Shown here: positions 6,937 through 42,815 of the stretch, piece after piece
How positions within the stretch are numbered: position 1 is the first letter of the stretch
Layout of the letters: each line of letters opens with the position of its first letter
Assembly (NCBI GenBank): GCA_021648285.1
Contig: JAKITC010000007.1
Location: 1-64,000 of the forward strand
Source of the DNA: Sulfurimonas sp.
Lineage (GTDB): Bacteria; Campylobacterota; Campylobacteria; Campylobacterales; Sulfurimonadaceae
Direction of reading: 5' to 3'
DNA: 64,000 nucleotides
Made by a program: the position numbers and the translations under genes
Notes under the pieces: model-generated
Told to the model about the DNA's origin: nothing
What the model saw: only the letters and a program-made list of their open reading frames with translations
The model's database searches: none

Positions 6937-7721
6937 AAACTGTAATCTCTATTGATGAGATAAACAAGATTTTTCCCTCATTTTACTTCATCAAACTCAC
7001 CCCTACAATATCTGGGATTATCGACACTACATATATAGCCCAAACCAAGACCAAAGAGTACATTTTAAAGAAGTATGAGAGAGATATTGGACATAAAATA
7101 CTCCAAGATGTAAGACTCCTAAATGAACTCAAATCAGCCGGACTGAATGTTCCTGTACGTATAGAGGAAAATAACGGCTGGTATATCTATGAAAAACTCC
7201 AAGGCGAACAGCCAAAAAATGTAAAGAGCTACCACATACAAGCCCTTGGTAGATTTTTAGCAAAGATGCACAAACAGACCTCTAAAACGAAATACGACTC
7301 AAACATAATCATAGAGGATGAGGTTACAGAGTCTCTAAAGTATGTAAAAGCCAACTTTTTCGGCTACTACAAAAGGTTTGAATTTCTTAAAAATTTTACT
7401 CTTGAAAATGACGGTCTGATTCACGGAGATATTTTTAAGGACAACACCATTTTTGACGGCAAAAAAATAGGTGTTATCGACTTTATAGACTCATCTTGCG
7501 GAACTTTTGCTTATGACGCAGCGGTTGCTCTTGTCGGCTTTGATGCAAAAATGCGTCACAAGTATTTTATAAATATATTTTTAAACAGTTATAATCAACA
7601 TGCACCTAAAAAACTCAAAAAAACAACTGTTATAAAAAAGATGAAATTTGCAGCCAATTTCTTCGCACTAAAAAGAGTAAATGAGTATAAAAACACTTCA
7701 AGAGCTAAAGAGTTACTATGA
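6927..7721 (+). CDS. APH/ThrB2-fold kinase, probable L-threonine (or serine) kinase for the B12 linker
   Basis: A 264-aa aminoglycoside phosphotransferase/homoserine kinase type II-like protein. The catalytic loop HGD (166-168) is followed by N173, and the metal-binding Asp lies in GVIDF (D185). It overlaps bluB by 10 nt and cobD by 4 nt. CobD needs L-threonine-O-3-phosphate, so a kinase in this place probably phosphorylates threonine (PduX/BluE role) or serine. Substrate is inferred from context; the fold also covers homoserine and choline kinases. Confidence 0.65.
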   Translation: MGVKTVISIDEINKIFPSFYFIKLTPTISGIIDTTYIAQTKTKEYILKKYERDIGHKILQDVRLLNELKSAGLNVPVRIEENNGWYIYEKLQGEQPKNVKSYHIQALGRFLAKMHKQTSKTKYDSNIIIEDEVTESLKYVKANFFGYYKRFEFLKNFTLENDGLIHGDIFKDNTIFDGKKIGVIDFIDSSCGTFAYDAAVALVGFDAKMRHKYFINIFLNSYNQHAPKKLKKTTVIKKMKFAANFFALKRVNEYKNTSRAKELL

Positions 7722-8716
7722 AACACGGTGCAAATATATATAAATATGCAAAAAAATCATCTTGCAAAACAGATGAGATTATAGATTTCTCATCAAACAT
7801 AAACAGCTACCATCCAAAAATCAAACTAACTCCTACAAATAATATGTTGGTCAAATATGCAGATAATAATTATACAAATTTAAAAAAAGCCATCTCAACA
7901 AAGTACCAAATAAAAAAGAGTCAAATCGCTCTTTATAATGGTGCGACCTCTGCAATTTTTGAGCTGTTTAGAACTCTAAAAGAGAAAAGAGTTTATCTCT
8001 ATGCACCTCTTTATGGCGAATATGAAAAAGCTGTGCCAAAAGATAAAAAAATCATTAAAATCAACCGTTTCAAAGATATACATGTAGAACCAAAAAAGAA
8101 CTCTATTGTAGTTTTTGTAAATCCGTCTACACCTGATGGTTCACACTATAATTTAGATAGATTATTTGCAATTTGGAAGAAACAAAACTGTACAATTATC
8201 CTTGACGAATCATTCATAGAGTTCCAAAAGCTAAAATCTTTGAGAAACCAAATTAATCATTATAAAAGATTGTATATTATCCAATCTTTTACCAAGTTTT
8301 ATAGCTGTGGCGGTGTGAGAATCGGTGCTATTTTTTCAAATAAATGCAATATTAAGGAACTAAAAACTCCTATGTGGAACCTTTCATCTTTTGATGTGGA
8401 ATTTTTGACTGAAAGACTTCAAAATAGAGCATTTGATAAGAAGAGTAGAAAGCTACATGTAAAGAATAAAAAAGAACTTCTAAAAATTTTAGAAAACTCC
8501 AAACTTTTTAGCAAAATATATAAGAGCAATTCAAATTTCTTTTTGGTAAAATCAAAAAAATCTGATAAAATTTTCAAACACTTACTAAAACATAAGATTT
8601 TAGTGAGAATTTGCGGAAGTTTTGACTTTTTGAGCAACGATTATCTTCGTTTTGCAGTCAAGGATTCACACTCAAACAAGTTACTACTAACAGCTTTTAA
8701 AGATATTAAATATTAA
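7718..8716 (+). CDS. cobD: Threonine-phosphate decarboxylase CobD (class I aminotransferase fold)
   Basis: A 332-aa PLP enzyme starting MKHGANIYKYAKK and carrying DFSSNINSYHP, hallmarks of CobD. The PLP lysine is K193 in QSFTKFYSCGGVRIG. It decarboxylates L-threonine phosphate to (R)-1-amino-2-propanol phosphate, which CbiB attaches to cobyric acid; some relatives act on serine phosphate to make norcobamides. It overlaps the kinase by 4 nt. Its natural next gene, cobQ, is now 4.5 kb away because of inserted cargo. HisC-like function is less likely given the neighbours. Confidence 0.8.
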   Translation: MKHGANIYKYAKKSSCKTDEIIDFSSNINSYHPKIKLTPTNNMLVKYADNNYTNLKKAISTKYQIKKSQIALYNGATSAIFELFRTLKEKRVYLYAPLYGEYEKAVPKDKKIIKINRFKDIHVEPKKNSIVVFVNPSTPDGSHYNLDRLFAIWKKQNCTIILDESFIEFQKLKSLRNQINHYKRLYIIQSFTKFYSCGGVRIGAIFSNKCNIKELKTPMWNLSSFDVEFLTERLQNRAFDKKSRKLHVKNKKELLKILENSKLFSKIYKSNSNFFLVKSKKSDKIFKHLLKHKILVRICGSFDFLSNDYLRFAVKDSHSNKLLLTAFKDIKY

Positions 8717-8723
8717 AAAATTA

Positions 8724-8773
8724 TTAAAGTATACCTATTATTGTATTTTTTATGAAAAATAGGTATACTTTAA
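8724..8773 (+). promoter_or_regulatory. Promoter embedded in a 15-bp perfect inverted repeat
   Basis: Arms TTAAAGTATACCTAT (8724-8738) and its exact reverse complement (8759-8773) flank a 20-nt centre. A promoter fits inside: -35 TTGTAT at 8741-8746, a 17-nt spacer and -10 TATACT at 8764-8769 in the right arm, 29 nt before the ATG at 8798. The symmetry over the promoter suggests an operator for a dimeric repressor. No T-run follows, so it is a poor terminator for cobD. Confidence 0.6.
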
Positions 8774-8797: not shown

Positions 8798-9832
8798 ATG
8801 TCTTTTTTATTTCTACAATACAATGATGCACAAATAAAACAACGCACAAATGCAAAGATGCTTTATACAAGTTACATGGATGCGCTAAACAGTTACAACC
8901 TGAGTTTTCGATATAAGATGGTGTGGCAAAAGCATAAAGACGGTTATGAACTGCTTGCAAAACAGCACTTAAAAAGTGGAGCTCGAGAATACTTAGGTAA
9001 AAAAAGCGATGAAACAAAGCAAATAAGAAAAGATTTTGAAAATTCAAAAGCTAAAATCAAAGGACGACTTGCAACTTTAAAAGAAAAGATGAAAAAAGAA
9101 GAAAAACTAAATAAGCTAGAGGGTATAACAAGAGCACCAAAAGAACTCGTTGCAATATTTAGCAAAATCAATGAACTTGGACTTGATAATAAGGTTATAG
9201 CTATTGGTACAAACTCTCTATATGCGTATGAGGTCCGTTCAGGAGTAGTCATAGAGCAAGAGCATTTAGCAACTAGAGATATTGACTTACTTAACAGAAA
9301 AGACAAAGGCATCTCATTTATTTTCAACGAGATGATGACGACAAAAAATGCTATAGAACTGCTAAATATGATAGATAGCAGTTTTACAAAGAGTGATAAA
9401 GTACCATATAGATTTATAAACGATGATGGTATTTGGATAGAACTAATCAACCCTATGTCAGACTCAATAAAACAAGAAAGTTTCAAAGACAATCTATTTG
9501 CTGATGTTATGCCACTTGCTATGAATGGAATGCAGTGGTTGGAAAATTCCAGACTTTTTAAAGAACTCATTATAGGAGAAAATGGAAAATGTGCTTTCAT
9601 AACTACTGTACATCCTCTTGAATATGCCATATACAAAAACTGGCTCTCAGCCCAAGAGGATAGAGACTATCTAAAACACACTCGTGACCTGCAACAGAGT
9701 AAACTTGTGACAAAACTTATAACAGAACACATGCCGGACATAAACATAGAAGAAGAAGTTAAAAATATCAAACACTTTAAAAAAGAGATAATTGATAGTT
9801 ATATGGCTGATGTTTTTAAGGGGAGTAACTAA
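8798..9832 (+). CDS. Nucleotidyltransferase-fold protein (GSU2403/NTP_transf_8-like)
   Basis: A 344-aa soluble protein. The first ~120 residues are helical and charged. A nucleotidyltransferase-like core follows: IGTNSLYAYE near 128-137, then a TRDIDLL motif near 160-166 where acidic residues would bind metal, and a HPLEYAIYKNWLS segment near the C-terminal third. This matches the GSU2403-type nucleotidyltransferase family as I remember it, whose role is unknown. Related folds occur in AbiEii/MenT-type toxins. It has its own palindromic promoter, lies between two B12 genes, and is followed 1 nt later by a gene remnant. No clear Shine-Dalgarno precedes the ATG. Confidence 0.6.
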   Translation: MSFLFLQYNDAQIKQRTNAKMLYTSYMDALNSYNLSFRYKMVWQKHKDGYELLAKQHLKSGAREYLGKKSDETKQIRKDFENSKAKIKGRLATLKEKMKKEEKLNKLEGITRAPKELVAIFSKINELGLDNKVIAIGTNSLYAYEVRSGVVIEQEHLATRDIDLLNRKDKGISFIFNEMMTTKNAIELLNMIDSSFTKSDKVPYRFINDDGIWIELINPMSDSIKQESFKDNLFADVMPLAMNGMQWLENSRLFKELIIGENGKCAFITTVHPLEYAIYKNWLSAQEDRDYLKHTRDLQQSKLVTKLITEHMPDINIEEEVKNIKHFKKEIIDSYMADVFKGSN

Positions 9833-9833
9833 T

Positions 9834-9954
9834 ATGGAACTGGTTTATTTATGGGTTGAGGATTTTGAGTGATGATTATTTTCATTTTGCGATTAAAAAA
9901 CAGCCACTAACACTACAAACTAAAAAAGCATTTAATGACGTATTGTCAGATTAA
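9834..9954 (+). pseudogene. Internally deleted remnant of a probable AAA-family ATPase gene
   Basis: ATG 9834 opens a 12-codon frame reading MELVYLWVEDFE and then stops at 9870-9872. That opening is the stereotyped N-terminus of many accessory AAA-family ATPases. In the +1 frame, just before that stop, a second coherent segment reads LSDDYFHFAIKK and runs to a stop at 9952-9954, like the C-terminal end of a protein. The simplest reading is a large internal deletion joining the two ends out of frame. Family assignment rests on only ~11 residues. Confidence 0.45.
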
Positions 9955-11419
9955 TCATATAAATGTTCTCTTTTGGATAAAATGGTTCAATATAAGTTTT
10001 AGGGGCTTTGATAAATATAATAAAACTCTTACTCTAAAAGGATATAAATTGGAAGACTTAAATAAAGTAAAAGATGAAATTGAGCAATTAGATGATGTTA
10101 GCATGGAAGTCTTGGATGCAATTTTTATTAGAAATAATAACAATGTGCAATCCAATTTAATCAATAACACTGATGAAACTTTTACATATAAACTAAAAAA
10201 TAAAAAATATGATTTTCATTTAAAAGAGCCAATTTTCATTGAAAAAATTCATTTTAAGTCTTCAGCAAATGATTTAAAGAATATGGTTCTAGAGGTAAAT
10301 GATTACTTCACAAATGAGAAAGTTAGAATACCAATAGATAATTACAAAGAATACGAATATATTGCCATTAAAATAAATAGGATTATTACCTCTTTTACTA
10401 TAAAACCACCTATTAGAGTTTTTAAAATCAATTTAAAATCAATAAAAATATTTGGTTATGAACTATCTGGATTACCATATATCACTGAGCTGTTCAAGTC
10501 AGGTCAAAAGATTAAAAAAGAGCTTCAAGGGTTTTATGACAATACAATCGAAGATTTAGGAGCTAGAGAAGATTCTATAACCTTAAAAAAAGAAAAAGCT
10601 GAAGAAAACATAGCAGTTCTAGAAAATGATATTTCTGAAAAAAAATCTATTATCACTGATTTAAATACCGAATTAATAGAGCTTAAATCTTCTATTAAGT
10701 CAGATTCTGAATCTGCTGAAACTTTAAAAGTTACCGTTAATGAATTAGAAACTCAAGAAAATAATTTAAATAAAAACTTAACAGATATAAAAAATAGCAT
10801 TGAACAAAGAGAAGAAGAATCAGCTTCTTTGAATAAAAAAATATCTAATGAAAAAGATACATTAAAAGAGAATCAAGCTAATAATAGTTTATTTGCTTAT
10901 GAATTAGGCGAGTTTTTAGAAGAAGGTAATAAAAATATTAAACTATACACTGTTATTTCAATCGTACCAATGCTATTAATAGTTTTTTTAACATATGTAT
11001 TATTAGGAAGTACAGTTGACCTAAGTACAAAATATACAATAAATACGGACATGGATATTTCAACAGTTTTTTGGAGTAGATTACCATTCGTATTAGTTAT
11101 TACATCTATTATATTTGTATGTTATGAAATTACAAAAATATTTTTTAAAAAAGTTATGGAAATACATCATCAGAAACTAAACTTTTCAAAAATAGGTATT
11201 ATTGCAAAAGATGTTTCTACAACATCTTTTGATGGATTAGACTTAAATGATAACGAAAAATCTGAATTACATACAAAACTAAAAATGCAACTACTAAGAG
11301 AATATTTATCTAGTGAATTTCATATTGAACATGATTGTAATATAAATAAATCATTATGGACTAGATTTATTGAGTGGAGAAAACAAAAAGATAATGAAGG
11401 AGTAGTAATAGAAGAATAA
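9935..11419 (+). CDS. Coiled-coil protein with two membrane helices, unknown function
   Basis: A 494-aa protein I do not recognise. Residues ~50-190 look like a beta-rich globular domain. About 205-325 is a long heptad-rich coiled coil (Glu/Lys/Asn-rich). Hydrophobic helices lie near 337-359 and 383-405, followed by a ~90-residue charged tail. The N-terminus is uncertain: the ATG overlaps the upstream remnant and has no ribosome site, so the gene may be 5'-altered. Its AT-richness is higher than that of the surrounding cob genes, suggesting transfer. A membrane-tethered sensor or defence effector is possible, but nothing in the sequence proves it. Confidence 0.55.
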   Translation: MTYCQINHINVLFWIKWFNISFRGFDKYNKTLTLKGYKLEDLNKVKDEIEQLDDVSMEVLDAIFIRNNNNVQSNLINNTDETFTYKLKNKKYDFHLKEPIFIEKIHFKSSANDLKNMVLEVNDYFTNEKVRIPIDNYKEYEYIAIKINRIITSFTIKPPIRVFKINLKSIKIFGYELSGLPYITELFKSGQKIKKELQGFYDNTIEDLGAREDSITLKKEKAEENIAVLENDISEKKSIITDLNTELIELKSSIKSDSESAETLKVTVNELETQENNLNKNLTDIKNSIEQREEESASLNKKISNEKDTLKENQANNSLFAYELGEFLEEGNKNIKLYTVISIVPMLLIVFLTYVLLGSTVDLSTKYTINTDMDISTVFWSRLPFVLVITSIIFVCYEITKIFFKKVMEIHHQKLNFSKIGIIAKDVSTTSFDGLDLNDNEKSELHTKLKMQLLREYLSSEFHIEHDCNINKSLWTRFIEWRKQKDNEGVVIEE

Positions 11420-11430
11420 TTAGGAAAATA

Positions 11431-11502
11431 ATGAACTCACTTAGCATTTTCGGAACAAGCTCTGACGCTGGAAAGTCAACTCTCTCTTACAATACCCTTT
11501 AA
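11431..11502 (+). pseudogene. Duplicated 5' fragment of cobQ
   Basis: The first 58 bases (11431-11488) are identical to the start of intact cobQ at 13225-13282, including the ATG and the P-loop codons. The copy then diverges and stops at 11500-11502 after 23 codons. The copy keeps a good ribosome site (TTAGGA, about 6-11 nt before ATG), whereas intact cobQ has none as good. This suggests that the left copy sits behind the older leader and the right copy was rebuilt by the insertion. Confidence 0.9.
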
Positions 11503-11528
11503 CTTTATATAAACTTAAAAATGTATGT

Positions 11529-11628
11529 TTCCGTACTTATCCGCACTAAAAATTGACTTAAATCTTTTATTTTGATAATATTATAAAAAACTTAAAGAAG
11601 TATAGTTTCGCACTAAACCGCACCAAAA
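11529..11628 (+). promoter_or_regulatory. Paired, helically phased operator-like repeats flanking the hipA-like promoter
   Basis: Two 23-bp imperfect direct repeats (11529-11551 and 11606-11628) match at 18 of 23 positions. Each holds two CGYAC cores exactly 10 bp apart (11532 and 11542; 11609 and 11619). Between them lies a candidate promoter: TTGACT 11553-11558, 17-nt spacer, TAATAT 11576-11581. Sites before -35 and just after the start of transcription, on one helix face, fit repression by a protein that binds both, perhaps the product's own winged-helix domain. Confidence 0.5.
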
Positions 11629-11638
11629 TGGATATGCA

Positions 11639-13222
11639 ATGACTAAAAGCCAAAAGATTATTGTTGATTTACTTGAGGAAAAAGTAGAACTTACTTTAGG
11701 CGAGATGCAAACACTTACCCAAATACCAAAATCTACGCTTATAGATAATCTAAAAAAACTACTAAAAGATGAAAAAATCAATAAAGTAGGCAAGGGTAAA
11801 GGCTCTTATTATCAGCGTGTATATAAAGATGAATTACCTTTAAAGTCTATTGTTGTATTTAAAAATGGTGAAAAAGTTGGTCATTTGAATTTCGGGGGCG
11901 GTTTATATGAGTTTAAATACTATGACAACTATAAAGGTGGAGAACTTTTAGGTCTTCCTAAAGATGTCATCACTAAAGCTCACGAGTTGTTCACAGTCTT
12001 TGAAAATTTAATACCGGAGTATGCAAGAAGAGAAAAGTTACTTGGTTTTGACAAGGCTATGGATCTAGCAGACACTTTAGTTAAGTTAAAAAACACACAT
12101 GGCTCGTATGACTTTTTGTATAGCTATGACGAGTATAAGTACAAGGGTAACTATTCTCAAAGAAAAAACTGGACAACTGTTAAAAATAAAATACTTGGTG
12201 AACATGAATACCCTAATATACTTGAATTTGATATATTGATTGATGATGAGATTATCGAAGCGGCGAGCAAGGTTGAGCATTCACACTTAAGTGGTAATCA
12301 AAATAAAATAGATATTTCAATAGATTTTGAAAATCATAAAATAGTCGAAAATTTGGAAAATGCTGATTACTTGATGAAACCACATAATCCAGATATCGCA
12401 AATTATTTTAATTCACATAAACAATTTTCTAAGAGCTACTACCCATATATATCTGTAAATGAACATTTGTTCATGTCTTTTGCCAAAAATGAGTTGGGTT
12501 TTAATGTTCCTTACTCTGCTCTTGTTAAAGCTAAAGATGAGTTTCACTATATAGCGAAACGCTATGATCGTCATGATAATTTTAAATATGAACAGTATGA
12601 TTATGCCCAATACTTAGGTATCAAGAGTGAAAATAAATATAAGTCTAGCAGTGAAGAGTTATTTGAAGCTATCAATAAAACGCTCTACACCAAAAAAGAA
12701 AAACTCGAAGCATTAAGGTTTTATTTTTACTCATTTGTTTTAAAACACTCTGACTTGCATTTAAAAAATATGGGTTTTTTAAATATTGGCAGAGACAAAA
12801 TGATTCTTACACCACTTTATGATGTAATATCTGTTGGACTCTATAACAACGAAGCTGATGATATTGGTCTAAGTATTAATGTCCCCTATAAACATCAAAA
12901 AAAGAACTTCAGGGTATCTAGTTTTTACCATTTGGCTGATATAGTGGGTGTCGATAGAGCTGTATTTAAAAATGAAGCTAAAACTATAGTAAAAACATTT
13001 ATAGATATATTTCCAACTTATATAGAGATGACGAAAAAGTTATTAGAGTATGATGATTTAAAAATATATAAAACAAGAAATTCCAAGACGACTATGTTGC
13101 ATAAACTCGCAGGTTTTTACAACAAGAGAGTTGAAAGATTTAAAAAGCTTGGTATCTTGGAAGAACTAGGTTTAAATGAATATGAATCTCTTTTAAAAAA
13201 TGAAAATAGGATTAAAATATAA
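11639..13222 (+). CDS. HipA-like kinase with N-terminal winged-helix domain
   Basis: A 527-aa protein. Residues ~1-70 form a winged-helix DNA-binding domain (TLGEMQTLTQIPKSTLIDNL). A HipA N-terminal-like region follows, and then the HipA-type kinase core with YIAKRYDRH near 305, the catalytic loop HSDLHLKN near 375-382 and a metal-binding PLYDVIS near 397. Classical HipA works with a separate HipB repressor; here DNA binding and kinase appear joined. HipA kinases phosphorylate targets such as glutamyl-tRNA synthetase and slow growth. The gene lies exactly between two copies of the cobQ start and has its own operator-like repeats. Confidence 0.75.
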   Translation: MTKSQKIIVDLLEEKVELTLGEMQTLTQIPKSTLIDNLKKLLKDEKINKVGKGKGSYYQRVYKDELPLKSIVVFKNGEKVGHLNFGGGLYEFKYYDNYKGGELLGLPKDVITKAHELFTVFENLIPEYARREKLLGFDKAMDLADTLVKLKNTHGSYDFLYSYDEYKYKGNYSQRKNWTTVKNKILGEHEYPNILEFDILIDDEIIEAASKVEHSHLSGNQNKIDISIDFENHKIVENLENADYLMKPHNPDIANYFNSHKQFSKSYYPYISVNEHLFMSFAKNELGFNVPYSALVKAKDEFHYIAKRYDRHDNFKYEQYDYAQYLGIKSENKYKSSSEELFEAINKTLYTKKEKLEALRFYFYSFVLKHSDLHLKNMGFLNIGRDKMILTPLYDVISVGLYNNEADDIGLSINVPYKHQKKNFRVSSFYHLADIVGVDRAVFKNEAKTIVKTFIDIFPTYIEMTKKLLEYDDLKIYKTRNSKTTMLHKLAGFYNKRVERFKKLGILEELGLNEYESLLKNENRIKI

Positions 13223-13224
13223 CC

Positions 13225-13282
13225 ATGAACTCACTTAGCATTTTCGGAACAAGCTCTGACGCTGGAAAGTCAACTCTCTCTT
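13225..13282 (+). repeat. Right copy of 58-bp perfect direct repeat (start of intact cobQ)
   Basis: Identical base for base to 11431-11488. The two copies bound a segment of about 1.7 kb containing only the hipA-like gene and its control region. The sequences immediately upstream of the two ATGs differ, so the duplication begins at or very near the start codon. Confidence 0.95.
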
Positions 13283-14610
13283 TTGCCATTACTTACCTAT
13301 TGCACCATCGTGGTATAAAGGTAGCACCGTTTAAAGCTCAAAATGTATCTAACAATTCTCAGGTTACGGATGCAGGCGGGGAGATTGCTATTCCTCAGTA
13401 CTTTGCAGCGGAGGCAATCGGGCTAGACACTACAACAGATATGAATCCCATTCTTTTAAAATCCGGCGGAAAATCAAAGACTCATATTATTATCAACGGT
13501 AAAAGTGCAGGCAACAAAGATGTGCTTGAGTACTACCGTGATATTGACATGTTAAAGCCACATGTAAAAAAAGCGTTTAAAAGACTAGAAAAAGAGTATG
13601 AATGCATAGTTGCAGAGGGAGCTGGGAGTCCAGTTGAGCTTAACCTAATGCATAAAGATCTCTCAAACATCTATGTGGCAGATGAGTTTAACACAAAGAT
13701 TATCATAGTTGCCGACATACAAAGGGGTGGTGTTTTTGCTTCCATTTACGGTGTTTATAAGCTGCTTCCTCAAAAGCTGAGAGACAATGTAATTGGTGTG
13801 ATAGTCAATAAATTTCAAGGTGACATGTCTCTTTTTGATGAGGGTGTACAGATTATAGAGGAGAGATTTGGCATCAAAGTTTTAGGTGTTGTGCCTTTTA
13901 AACCTTTTAACCTTGGTTTTGAAGACAGCCAGTCAATTATGAACTATGTACAAGACACAAGAAAAGCCATTATAAAAGTTGGAGTTATCAAACTTCCCCA
14001 CATTAGTAATTTTACAGACTTTGAGCCTCTTGTTGTTGACAAAGAAGTTGAACTCTCTTTCATCTCAAACGCTGGTGATATTCGTACATGTGACCTAGTA
14101 GTAATCCCAGGAAGCAAAAGAGTTGTTGACGATTTGAAATGGTTGAGAGAGCGAGGTTTTGAAGATAAGCTAAGTTCAAAAGAACAAAAAGTAGTGGCTA
14201 TCTGTGGCGGTTATGAGATGATGTTTGAGCGTATTTCAGACCCTAAAAATATAGAATCAGATTTAAAAGAAGTAGCAGGATTTGGACGGATAAAGGGCGA
14301 TGTGACTTTTCAAAAAGAAAAGATTGTACAAAAGGGAACTTACAATCTTTTTGGCTTTATGGTTGATGGATATGAGATACACAACGGTATCGCTAAAAAA
14401 AGAGCTATTAAGAGAAAAAATCTACATGCAACTTTTGTTCATGGGTTTTTTGACAGCGATGAGATTCGTTATCATTTTTTTTCTGAGATAAATCCAAAAT
14501 ACAAGGGTTATAACTTCAAAAAATACAAAGCAAAAGCGATTAAAAATTTTGCCAAGCATATAGACAAACATATAGATATGGACTTTATAGAAAATGAGCT
14601 TCATGAGTAA
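13225..14610 (+). CDS. cobQ: Cobyric acid synthase (glutamine-hydrolysing)
   Basis: A 461-aa enzyme with an N-terminal dethiobiotin-synthetase-like ATPase domain: P-loop GTSSDAGKS at 8-16, then KAQNVSNNSQVT. A class I glutaminase-like domain follows with Cys327 in AICGGYEMM and a late His in FVHGFF. It amidates side chains b, d, e and g of adenosylcobyrinic acid a,c-diamide. Its first 58 bases also occur at 11431. No strong ribosome site remains; AGGA lies 14 nt before the ATG, so translation may depend on readthrough from the hipA-like gene 2 nt upstream. Confidence 0.9.
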   Translation: MNSLSIFGTSSDAGKSTLSFAITYLLHHRGIKVAPFKAQNVSNNSQVTDAGGEIAIPQYFAAEAIGLDTTTDMNPILLKSGGKSKTHIIINGKSAGNKDVLEYYRDIDMLKPHVKKAFKRLEKEYECIVAEGAGSPVELNLMHKDLSNIYVADEFNTKIIIVADIQRGGVFASIYGVYKLLPQKLRDNVIGVIVNKFQGDMSLFDEGVQIIEERFGIKVLGVVPFKPFNLGFEDSQSIMNYVQDTRKAIIKVGVIKLPHISNFTDFEPLVVDKEVELSFISNAGDIRTCDLVVIPGSKRVVDDLKWLRERGFEDKLSSKEQKVVAICGGYEMMFERISDPKNIESDLKEVAGFGRIKGDVTFQKEKIVQKGTYNLFGFMVDGYEIHNGIAKKRAIKRKNLHATFVHGFFDSDEIRYHFFSEINPKYKGYNFKKYKAKAIKNFAKHIDKHIDMDFIENELHE

Positions 14611-40793: not shown

Positions 40794-42815
40794 TTATAAA
40801 CTTTTTTCTGCAAATAATTTGTAAACATGCATCGTTTTTATATAAATATTTAATATTTTTTCAATCTGTGATACTAAAATCGTGTTTATCTTTTTTATAT
40901 GTTTTTTGTTATTACTTAGCTCTTTTGTATTAAAAAAATCAAAGATATAAGGGGTTATGTATAAAAAATAAGAGTACATAATATAATTTATATCTAAAGC
41001 TTTTTCTTTTTCTTTTCCTATTAAAGTATTGATAAGTTGAGATAGTGTTAGCATATATAAATCTAGATTTGGATAAGATTTTTTAAGGTTGTAATCTTTT
41101 AGAGTATCAAAAAGATAAATCCCTTCGTTTAAAGCTTCGCTAATGTAATCAGTATCGTCTTGATTTACGTGATTTTGCGAGAAGGATTGAAAGAAATTTT
41201 CTAACTCATTTCTTAATGGCTTAGAAAATATATCCATATTTGTTAGGTTAAAATCTTCTATTTTCAGAGGTATAGTGCCCTTTAAAAATGCACCGTCACT
41301 CAGGTTATATACAGTTTGGTCTGGTTTTTGATACATGTCATGCAACATACCAAAATCATGTATAGAGGTTTTAAAAATAGGTATAGTAGGAACTTTGTCT
41401 AAAAAATTACCTTTGACATAAGCTACAGTGTGTTCAAGTTGATGATTATAAACATCTTCCATTTCATTGTTCAGTTTACCACCTCTTTCATGCTCCTCAT
41501 TTGCATACATTCGTTTTGTTTCTGCATCAAGTGCTAAGTCAAGACCAAGCATATATAGAGTTTTTATTCCAAAGATTAATAATAGTCCATATGATAGTTC
41601 TCCGACACTAGGACTGGTTATAGAGCCAAAATTTTGTTTACAGTGTGAATTGCTTTCAAAGATATAGATGTTTTTCTTTGGTACCATATTTGATACTTTT
41701 TTACTAACCATGGAGGAAAAAACAAATATTGTGTCAGAGAGAAAGCTTTCTACTTTAATACCTTTGAAAAATTTTAATAGTATTTCATCTGGATCAAGAT
41801 TTACTACAATGTCTGGTTTAATATTATGCTTATACAGAGTTTGTAATGAAGCTAGTACACAAATAATAATAAATTTATTCTGGTTTGCTTTAACCCAATC
41901 AATTTGTTTCAATAGTGATGGACCGGCTGCAAGCAGTAAAACAGATTTTTTTACAAAAAAATTATTATTTACATGTTCAGAGATATTAAGATAGTTATAA
42001 TTTTCTACAAGATACTCAGGTGTTTTTAATATATTTTTTAATTGTGTAGCGTATGGATATGCAATGTAATTTTGTGTAATAATTATGTCTTGAATCTTTT
42101 TTATTTTTGAAATATAGTTTTCCGAAAAAATTGTGTATTTTAGGTAATGATTATGATTGTACCCAGAAATTAAATAGTTTTCAAATGTAGATTTAAATTC
42201 AGAATTATTCTCTGCAATAGAATAAAAAATTTTTATATTTTCAAATACTTTGTTATAATCAATAGTAAATAGTGAAAGTCTAAAGAGTTCTAAATCATCT
42301 TCTATTATTAGAACTTTTGATGATTTTATTTTATTTTGAATCAATTCAAGATGCTTTCCATTTCCAACACCAAAAAAAATATATTTTTCTAAGCGTTTGA
42401 GCGTTGTTGTCGCTTTAGGTGCATTTTTTGTTGTGTAAAAAATTAAATTAGATGTTGCATATAATGGAGAATAGGAAATTTCAATTATATCATGGAATTG
42501 TTGAGCGTAATTTTCACTTAAATTTTGATTATAAAATGTTTCAATTACGTTTTCTGTTTTAGTGTGATTTACTTTTTTGGCTACTTTTTTTGATATTTCA
42601 TTGCTATTCTCACCGTATAAGAATTGCTGACTCTCAAGTTCTTGAATATCGAAATAATTATTTTTATATTCAAGAGAATACTTTTCTTTGTATTGTCCGG
42701 TTTCTATCGCAATGTTTAGAAGATTAAGCTTTTTATATACTTCAGGATGTTGTGTAGAAAAATAATCCATGTTATTTTGGTATGTTTGGAGAGCCTGATC
42801 TTCTATGGAGTTCAT
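40794..42815 (-). CDS. Motility-associated Maf glycosyltransferase (DUF115)
   Basis: A 673-aa protein. The central domain has the DUF115/MptE-like signature VLLLAAGPSLLKQIDWV near residue 295, DIVVNLDPDE near 335 and LYMLGLDLALDAETKRMY near 428. Maf proteins transfer nonulosonic acids (pseudaminic or legionaminic acid) onto flagellin in Campylobacter and Aeromonas. Its 3' end faces flagellin, separated by a terminator. It is consistent with flagellin as substrate; the exact sugar is unknown. Confidence 0.85.
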   Translation of the reverse strand: MNSIEDQALQTYQNNMDYFSTQHPEVYKKLNLLNIAIETGQYKEKYSLEYKNNYFDIQELESQQFLYGENSNEISKKVAKKVNHTKTENVIETFYNQNLSENYAQQFHDIIEISYSPLYATSNLIFYTTKNAPKATTTLKRLEKYIFFGVGNGKHLELIQNKIKSSKVLIIEDDLELFRLSLFTIDYNKVFENIKIFYSIAENNSEFKSTFENYLISGYNHNHYLKYTIFSENYISKIKKIQDIIITQNYIAYPYATQLKNILKTPEYLVENYNYLNISEHVNNNFFVKKSVLLLAAGPSLLKQIDWVKANQNKFIIICVLASLQTLYKHNIKPDIVVNLDPDEILLKFFKGIKVESFLSDTIFVFSSMVSKKVSNMVPKKNIYIFESNSHCKQNFGSITSPSVGELSYGLLLIFGIKTLYMLGLDLALDAETKRMYANEEHERGGKLNNEMEDVYNHQLEHTVAYVKGNFLDKVPTIPIFKTSIHDFGMLHDMYQKPDQTVYNLSDGAFLKGTIPLKIEDFNLTNMDIFSKPLRNELENFFQSFSQNHVNQDDTDYISEALNEGIYLFDTLKDYNLKKSYPNLDLYMLTLSQLINTLIGKEKEKALDINYIMYSYFLYITPYIFDFFNTKELSNNKKHIKKINTILVSQIEKILNIYIKTMHVYKLFAEKSL

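Follow-up and report, generated by a model that had tools for sequence, protein, structure and literature searches.

How does a single gene come to stand between two exact copies of the start of its neighbor? The question is raised by a locus in a stretch of 64,000 nucleotides of Sulfurimonas DNA (hereafter, the window), in which the first 58 bp of cobQ are found on both sides of a hipA-like gene. The features needed to answer it are the following:

7718..8716, plus strand: cobD-like threonine-phosphate decarboxylase gene, the usual upstream neighbor of cobQ in the genus (TIGR01140, E 2e-63, under the family cut-off)
8798..9832, plus strand: accessory nucleotidyltransferase gene between cobD and cobQ (NTP_transf_8, PF12281; Pfam E 2e-34)
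9863..9954, plus strand: possible leftover of another cobD 3' end, next to the nucleotidyltransferase gene (tentative and weak; 28-bp local match, 79%)
9935..11419, plus strand: accessory gene for a coiled-coil/membrane protein (ORF; sporadic)
11431..11488, plus strand: left 58-bp copy, cobQ codons 1-19, preceded by AGGA and truncated to MNSLSIFGTSSDAGKSTLSYNTL-stop
11489..11638, plus strand: hipA control region, with two operator-like repeats flanking TTGACT and TAATAT
11639..13222, plus strand: monocistronic hipA-like gene, 527 aa, of HipH/YjjJ-type layout (HipA_C, E 9e-32; invariant kinase residues; fold matches)
13225..13282, plus strand: right 58-bp copy, the first 19 codons of the intact cobQ (by repeat comparison)
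13225..14610, plus strand: intact cobQ gene for cobyric acid synthase, 461 aa (NF001989 equivalog, above cut-off)

The first-pass annotation had reported an exact 58-bp duplication, and the comparison of the two copies bears it out. Positions 11431-11488 and 13225-13282 form a direct repeat identical over 58/58 nt (100%), with starts 1794 bp apart, and self-BLAST of the window returns it as the sole direct repeat with E<=1e-3 (E 5e-23). A search for cobQ across the whole 1.97-Mb genome gave matches at the two repeat sites and nowhere else. The first base of the repeat is exactly the A of the cobQ ATG. The right copy makes up codons 1-19 of a 461-aa cobQ, so that the duplication does keep this gene intact, as had been proposed. 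The left copy begins 11 bp past the stop of the preceding gene; it has a good Shine-Dalgarno motif (AGGA, 5 nt upstream of the ATG) and opens a truncated ORF of 23 codons. The right copy begins 2 bp past the hipA stop. Since the left copy has an AGGA site and no comparable one is seen at the right copy, the natural reading is that the left copy marks the old cobQ start. Elsewhere in the window, a near-perfect palindrome of 36 bp (42640-42675) lies at the start of a minus-strand gene of 673 aa.

Between the copies are found a control region of about 150 bp and one hipA-like gene, and nothing else. In the control region, two imperfect operator-like repeats of 41 nt (11511-11551 and 11588-11628) surround a TTGACT box (11553-11558) and a TAATAT box (11576-11581). 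The same arrangement is found upstream of three relatives (L077, L078, and L086), which indicates that this region belongs to the hipA gene. At the sequence level, the product resembles solved HipA/HipT kinases only weakly. Its predicted structure, of moderate confidence (mean pLDDT 69), matches HipA structures in Foldseek (E 4e-11) and also winged-helix DNA-binding proteins over about 60 residues; on this model, the latter match is read as the N-terminus of the protein. The catalytic-loop residues H370, D372, K376, N377, and D395 are invariant across 12 relatives, and the product is predicted to have kinase activity and to be toxic. The annotation had described the segment as lacking a transposase, an integrase, and inverted ends, and each point held. 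Among the ORFs at the locus there is neither a transposase nor a partner gene for hipA, which forms a single-gene operon; no transposase or integrase domain occurs in the ORFs between cobD and cobQ; a profile built from the integrases of the collected loci finds no recombinase near the locus; and the insert termini, when read out, present no evident inverted repeats.

The surroundings of cobQ in the genus suggest that hipA is an arrival. Three accessory genes separate cobD from cobQ here, namely the nucleotidyltransferase gene (in 10/135 same-genus genomes), the coiled-coil protein gene (5/135), and hipA, relatives of which are found at any similarity in 43/135, the best in the genus being 48-51% identical. 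No hipA locus examined besides this one lies near cobQ. In nine same-genus relatives, cobD directly abuts cobQ, and the other 29 cobQ loci each carry the start of the gene once; thus, the gene order supports an insertion. Relatives devoid of hipA and still carrying both copies, which the annotation had named as the refuting case, are not encountered among these about 30 loci. It had suggested looking for relatives with one copy and cobQ right after the upstream gene; a single cobQ start and the cobD-cobQ adjacency are seen in relatives, but the nearest cobQ in the collections is only 81% identical in protein and no close relative there has the exact empty site, which is therefore seen by gene order only. 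Variation upstream of cobQ occurs elsewhere too, as in two further genomes (G025 and G015) accessory genes lie directly against the start of cobQ. In the window, the putative cobD remnant at 9863-9954 gives a protein match of LSNDYLRFAVKD/LSDDYFHFAIKK (E 0.06, from a search of 2.7 kb), with a stop codon at the matching place; judging from these letters, it is possible that the nucleotidyltransferase gene, too, sits as if inserted with a duplicated gene end. One cobQ that had been considered a similar insertion (L026, in G024) was rejected, as it carries an internal deletion near the cobQ start instead; this genome has a second cobQ fragment on another contig.

Does the arrangement recur? Related one-gene hipA loci were gathered from the genus and from GTDB contigs, where a search with a hipA alignment returned 44 loci and an earlier single-protein query none. 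Other hipA-like genes bounded by duplicated host sequence, which the annotation had suggested looking for, are indeed found. At the fliD 5' end (L083), a solo hipA lies between copies of 80 bp that include the ribosome site and are 84% identical, the left one frameshifted. A second lies between convergent gdh and chemotaxis (MCP) genes, within an intergenic repeat of 94 bp (94%; L106), and a third at an Aliarcobacter intergenic site, within a repeat of 78 bp (96%; L110); L116 and L098 are weaker cases of a solo hipA between direct repeats. The fliD copies, 84% identical to each other, reach at most 74-79% identity with any sister fliD, which favors duplication of the host's own sequence. The boundaries are also alike: the right repeat begins 2 (window), 26 (L106), and 1 bp (L110) past the hipA stop, and a control region of 132-143 bp adjoins the repeat in L110 and L106. 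Near-identical hipA genes at differing sites have only promoter and gene in common (1.70-1.85 kb). Two such promoter-hipA units, one from Aliarcobacter (L078) and one from Arcobacter (L086), share 94% identity over 1850 bp at unrelated locations, and the extent of this match delimits the transferred unit. In L080/L035 (G093), the hipA promoter and first codons are themselves duplicated downstream of hipA.

Other genes are found in comparable positions. In L072 (G153), a nucleotidyltransferase gene precedes an FAD oxidoreductase gene and has, on the side away from it, a degenerate copy of the start of that gene, of about 70 bp (1420-1490 / 2733-2794); another, in L257 (G269), is bounded by the duplicated 3' end of its neighbor, of about 165 bp (892-1056 / 2548-2714); and a Fic gene in L246 (G140) has on both sides the 3' coding end of its neighbor, duplicated over 108 bp (1019-1126 / 2183-2290). 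Under one scoring rule, flanking repeats were counted at 7/42 solo hipA loci against 0/110 core-gene loci (p 8e-5) and at 0/11 canonical HipA loci, and the strictest count keeps 4/42 solo hipA loci against 0/110 core genes (p 0.005); these statistics ignore shared ancestry, the loci being not fully independent. Flanking repeats also occur at 3-4/16 NTP_transf_8 and 1/29 Fic loci, and the counts do not establish an excess peculiar to hipA. Several candidates were set aside: L087 and L102, whose repeats resemble interspersed repeats; L085, which lies at a contig end and has further sequence besides hipA between its copies; three loci with a tRNA att (L039/L041/L082) and L114, which is tRNA-like; and L249, an ORF-call artefact. 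Porin-ybgC, radical-SAM-fliD, and gdh-MCP adjacencies were looked for in the relatives and none was found, so that the left neighbors at the ybgC, fliD, and gdh sites have also been rearranged.

The reading that we consider the most likely, and hold with moderate confidence, is that the hipA unit was inserted with duplication of its target, as the annotation had proposed under the heading of insertion with long target duplication. The anatomy of the locus with its left-copy ribosome site, the sporadic occurrence of hipA, the cobD-cobQ pairs devoid of hipA in relatives, and the recurrence at fliD and two intergenic sites all argue for it; against it weigh the integrase islands that carry related hipA genes, the onset of the repeat exactly at ATG, and the distance of the nearest cobQ. 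The course of events could be as follows. A slot before cobQ that had taken up other accessory genes earlier would have read cc494-TTAGGAAAATA-ATG-cobQ, with a single 58-bp copy and no hipA. A self-regulated unit of about 1.74 kb (a promoter with operators and a winged-helix/HipA kinase gene) would then have entered in or near the cobQ start, so that the opening 58 bp of this gene came to lie on either side. The left copy would have retained the old ribosome-binding site, now serving a dead ORF of 23 codons, and the right copy would start the intact cobQ. The 58-bp repeats would permit a precise excision restoring cobQ. We infer that the duplication arose during the insertion itself rather than through a since-lost integrase, and that the enzymatic route was one of two, a staggered break that captured the end of the incoming DNA or a joining of this DNA with the help of homology. 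The repeat starting exactly at the ATG favors a step limited by coding-sequence homology. It counts against a simple staggered-end fill-in, which does not predict such an onset and would leave it to coincidence; a start-codon onset is expected if homology is confined to the coding sequence, as in att-type or homology-assisted recombination.

The absence of an integrase at cobQ is no proof of a transposase-less mechanism, because related hipA genes ride on tyrosine-integrase islands. Indeed, close relatives of this hipA are cargo of such islands at tRNA-Leu, at tRNA-Ser, and at the 5' end of ybgC. The 58-bp repeats could accordingly be the attachment sites (attL and attR) left by a tyrosine-integrase island at the cobQ 5' end, from which the integrase and the other cargo were deleted and hipA was left; we regard this as unlikely, though a real alternative. 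Islands of this kind bring a replacement gene start, so that the host gene stays intact, and the repeat begins at the start codon, much as dusA 5'-end islands replace the 5' sequence of their gene (PMC4482086). The ybgC 5' end looks like a widely used site of this sort in the genus, as integrase genes abut the ybgC start in at least 8/30 loci. Among the loci of this acyl-CoA thioesterase gene (L121-L150), the integrase C-terminus abuts or overlaps the ybgC start in, for example, L134, L135, L139, L146, L123, L130, and L150. In three genomes, a ybgC-start fragment of 20-23 bp precedes hipA (L043, L044, and L045, in G136, G140, and G005, respectively), and in G136 and G140 ybgC is not adjacent. 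In G005, the fragment before hipA is of 23 bp, and on the other side of hipA, ahead of ybgC, an integrase tail of 37 aa remains. A clean empty site for this case had been sought in a sister species (G087) and was not obtained, since similarity is lost at codon 3 of ybgC and another gene lies upstream; this failed comparison led to the integrase finding. The G005 case, which among the solo cases at gene starts is the most hipA-like, turned out to be a decayed, integrase-deleted island that mimics a hipA gene with a duplicated gene start, and a lost integrase must thus be weighed at cobQ as well. In G140, the order is integrase, abutting ybgC-start fragment, and hipA, which suggests tandem accretion of islands. 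Moreover, hipA adjoins integrases at tRNA-Leu in G009 (with a 56-bp repeat) and G142, and a hipA-integrase pair in G065 (L211, about 8740-8765) keeps a tRNA-Leu 3'-end fragment where there is no tRNA gene.

Several observations speak against such a decayed island at cobQ. Next to cobQ, fliD, and gdh, no integrase was found in about 30 relatives' loci each, and the hipA stop lies 2 bp from the right repeat, which leaves no space there for an integrase remnant. The fliD-site unit and its integrase-borne twin in G065 have only promoter and gene in common, and the former starts between the att and the promoter of the latter, so that it was not cut at att. Finally, the repeats vary from site to site in sequence and length.

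A second alternative, which we hold to be slightly more doubtful, is homology-assisted recombination after DNA uptake. A donor carrying hipA-cobQ would have recombined through cobQ on the right, and an illegitimate joining inside the recipient cobQ on the left would have left a partial second copy. Homology-assisted illegitimate recombination is discussed in PMC2884548 and is a process known in competent bacteria; it would explain the onset of the repeat exactly at ATG as well as the hypervariable upstream side of cobQ seen in G025 and G015. On the contrary, it requires a donor that already had hipA next to cobQ, and none is found among the other hipA loci examined. With 58/58 identity, the donor would have to belong to the same species, as same-genus cobQ starts reach at most about 93% over shorter stretches, and the recurrence at fliD and gdh is left without an account by this process alone.

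An assembly artefact, in which a chimeric path through the 58-bp repeat joins the strain variants cc494-cobQ and hipA-cobQ, is very improbable. The annotation had named an assembly error as a refutation, and the draft state of the genome (55 contigs, about 90% complete) gives it some weight; however, the repeat lies in the middle of a 79.9-kb contig, the left junction between the cobQ fragment and the hipA control region requires its own reads on any path, and the comparable loci of other genomes have diverged repeats, with mismatches that are impossible as assembly overlaps. Three further readings were rejected: a transposon with inverted ends, as neither a transposase nor evident inverted termini are present and the duplication length varies (58 bp here and 78-94 bp in others); a phage-borne unit, as a scan of IMG/VR found no relative; and a plasmid source, as only relatives of about 32% occur, on Arcobacter-type plasmids.

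If insertion with target duplication is retained, a broader proposal can be made, for which we claim no more than a tentative standing. Monocistronic, self-repressing Hip-type kinase genes, together with some single nucleotidyltransferase genes, might be mobility units in Campylobacterota, consisting of promoter and gene with no recombinase of their own; they would enter gene ends with a duplication of 40-165 bp that rebuilds the host gene, and the repeat would enable their exit. The recurrence in relatives at the ends of other genes points to repeated transposase-free movement of single genes. Since 2000, insertion with long target duplication has posed a puzzle, known mainly from the restriction-modification genes of Helicobacter, and its extension to single-gene toxin-like kinases at several sites and in several genera provides a set of cases for testing the responsible mechanism. 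As a decayed integrase island such as that at ybgC can mimic the pattern, future catalogues must rule such islands out.

It remains to place this locus among known systems. Insertion with long target duplication was described for restriction-modification genes of Helicobacter pylori (Nobusato, Uchiyama, Ohashi, Kobayashi 2000), with duplications that, in the passages of PMC1643837 and PMC3874152 that treat them, are of variable length and "in the order of 100 bp". The cobQ-hipA case resembles it in that no known mobile element accompanies the gene unit, host sequence forms the direct repeats, and the host gene is left intact. It differs in its cargo, a monocistronic HipA-type kinase gene and not a restriction-modification unit, and is therefore a variant of this class rather than a member. 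It also differs from the Helicobacter cases by its Sulfurimonas and Aliarcobacter hosts, by the nucleotidyltransferase genes that take this place in relatives, and by an empty site seen through gene order and not through a comparison of two strains. With the dusA islands, integrase islands that replace the 5' end of their gene and have a semiconserved repeat of 21 bp (PMC4482086), the locus shares a duplicated host gene start and a gene rebuilt from 5' sequence supplied by the element; at cobQ, however, there is neither an integrase nor a conserved att core, and the repeat is of 58 bp. The product is likened, by layout and predicted fold, to the HipH/YjjJ kinases, encoded by a single gene and composed of an N-terminal HTH and a HipA kinase in 443 aa (PMC8262856); it is likewise monocistronic, with an N-terminal HTH predicted to be fused to the kinase, and unlike them it is longer (527 aa), weakly similar to the solved HipA proteins, sporadic, and mobile. 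Lastly, in HipAB-carrying genomic islands such as CGI48 of Shewanella (PMC8978831), a Hip toxin gene is likewise transported, by a site-specific island, but there a two-gene hipAB travels in 48 kb, whereas the unit described here is one gene in 1.7 kb.
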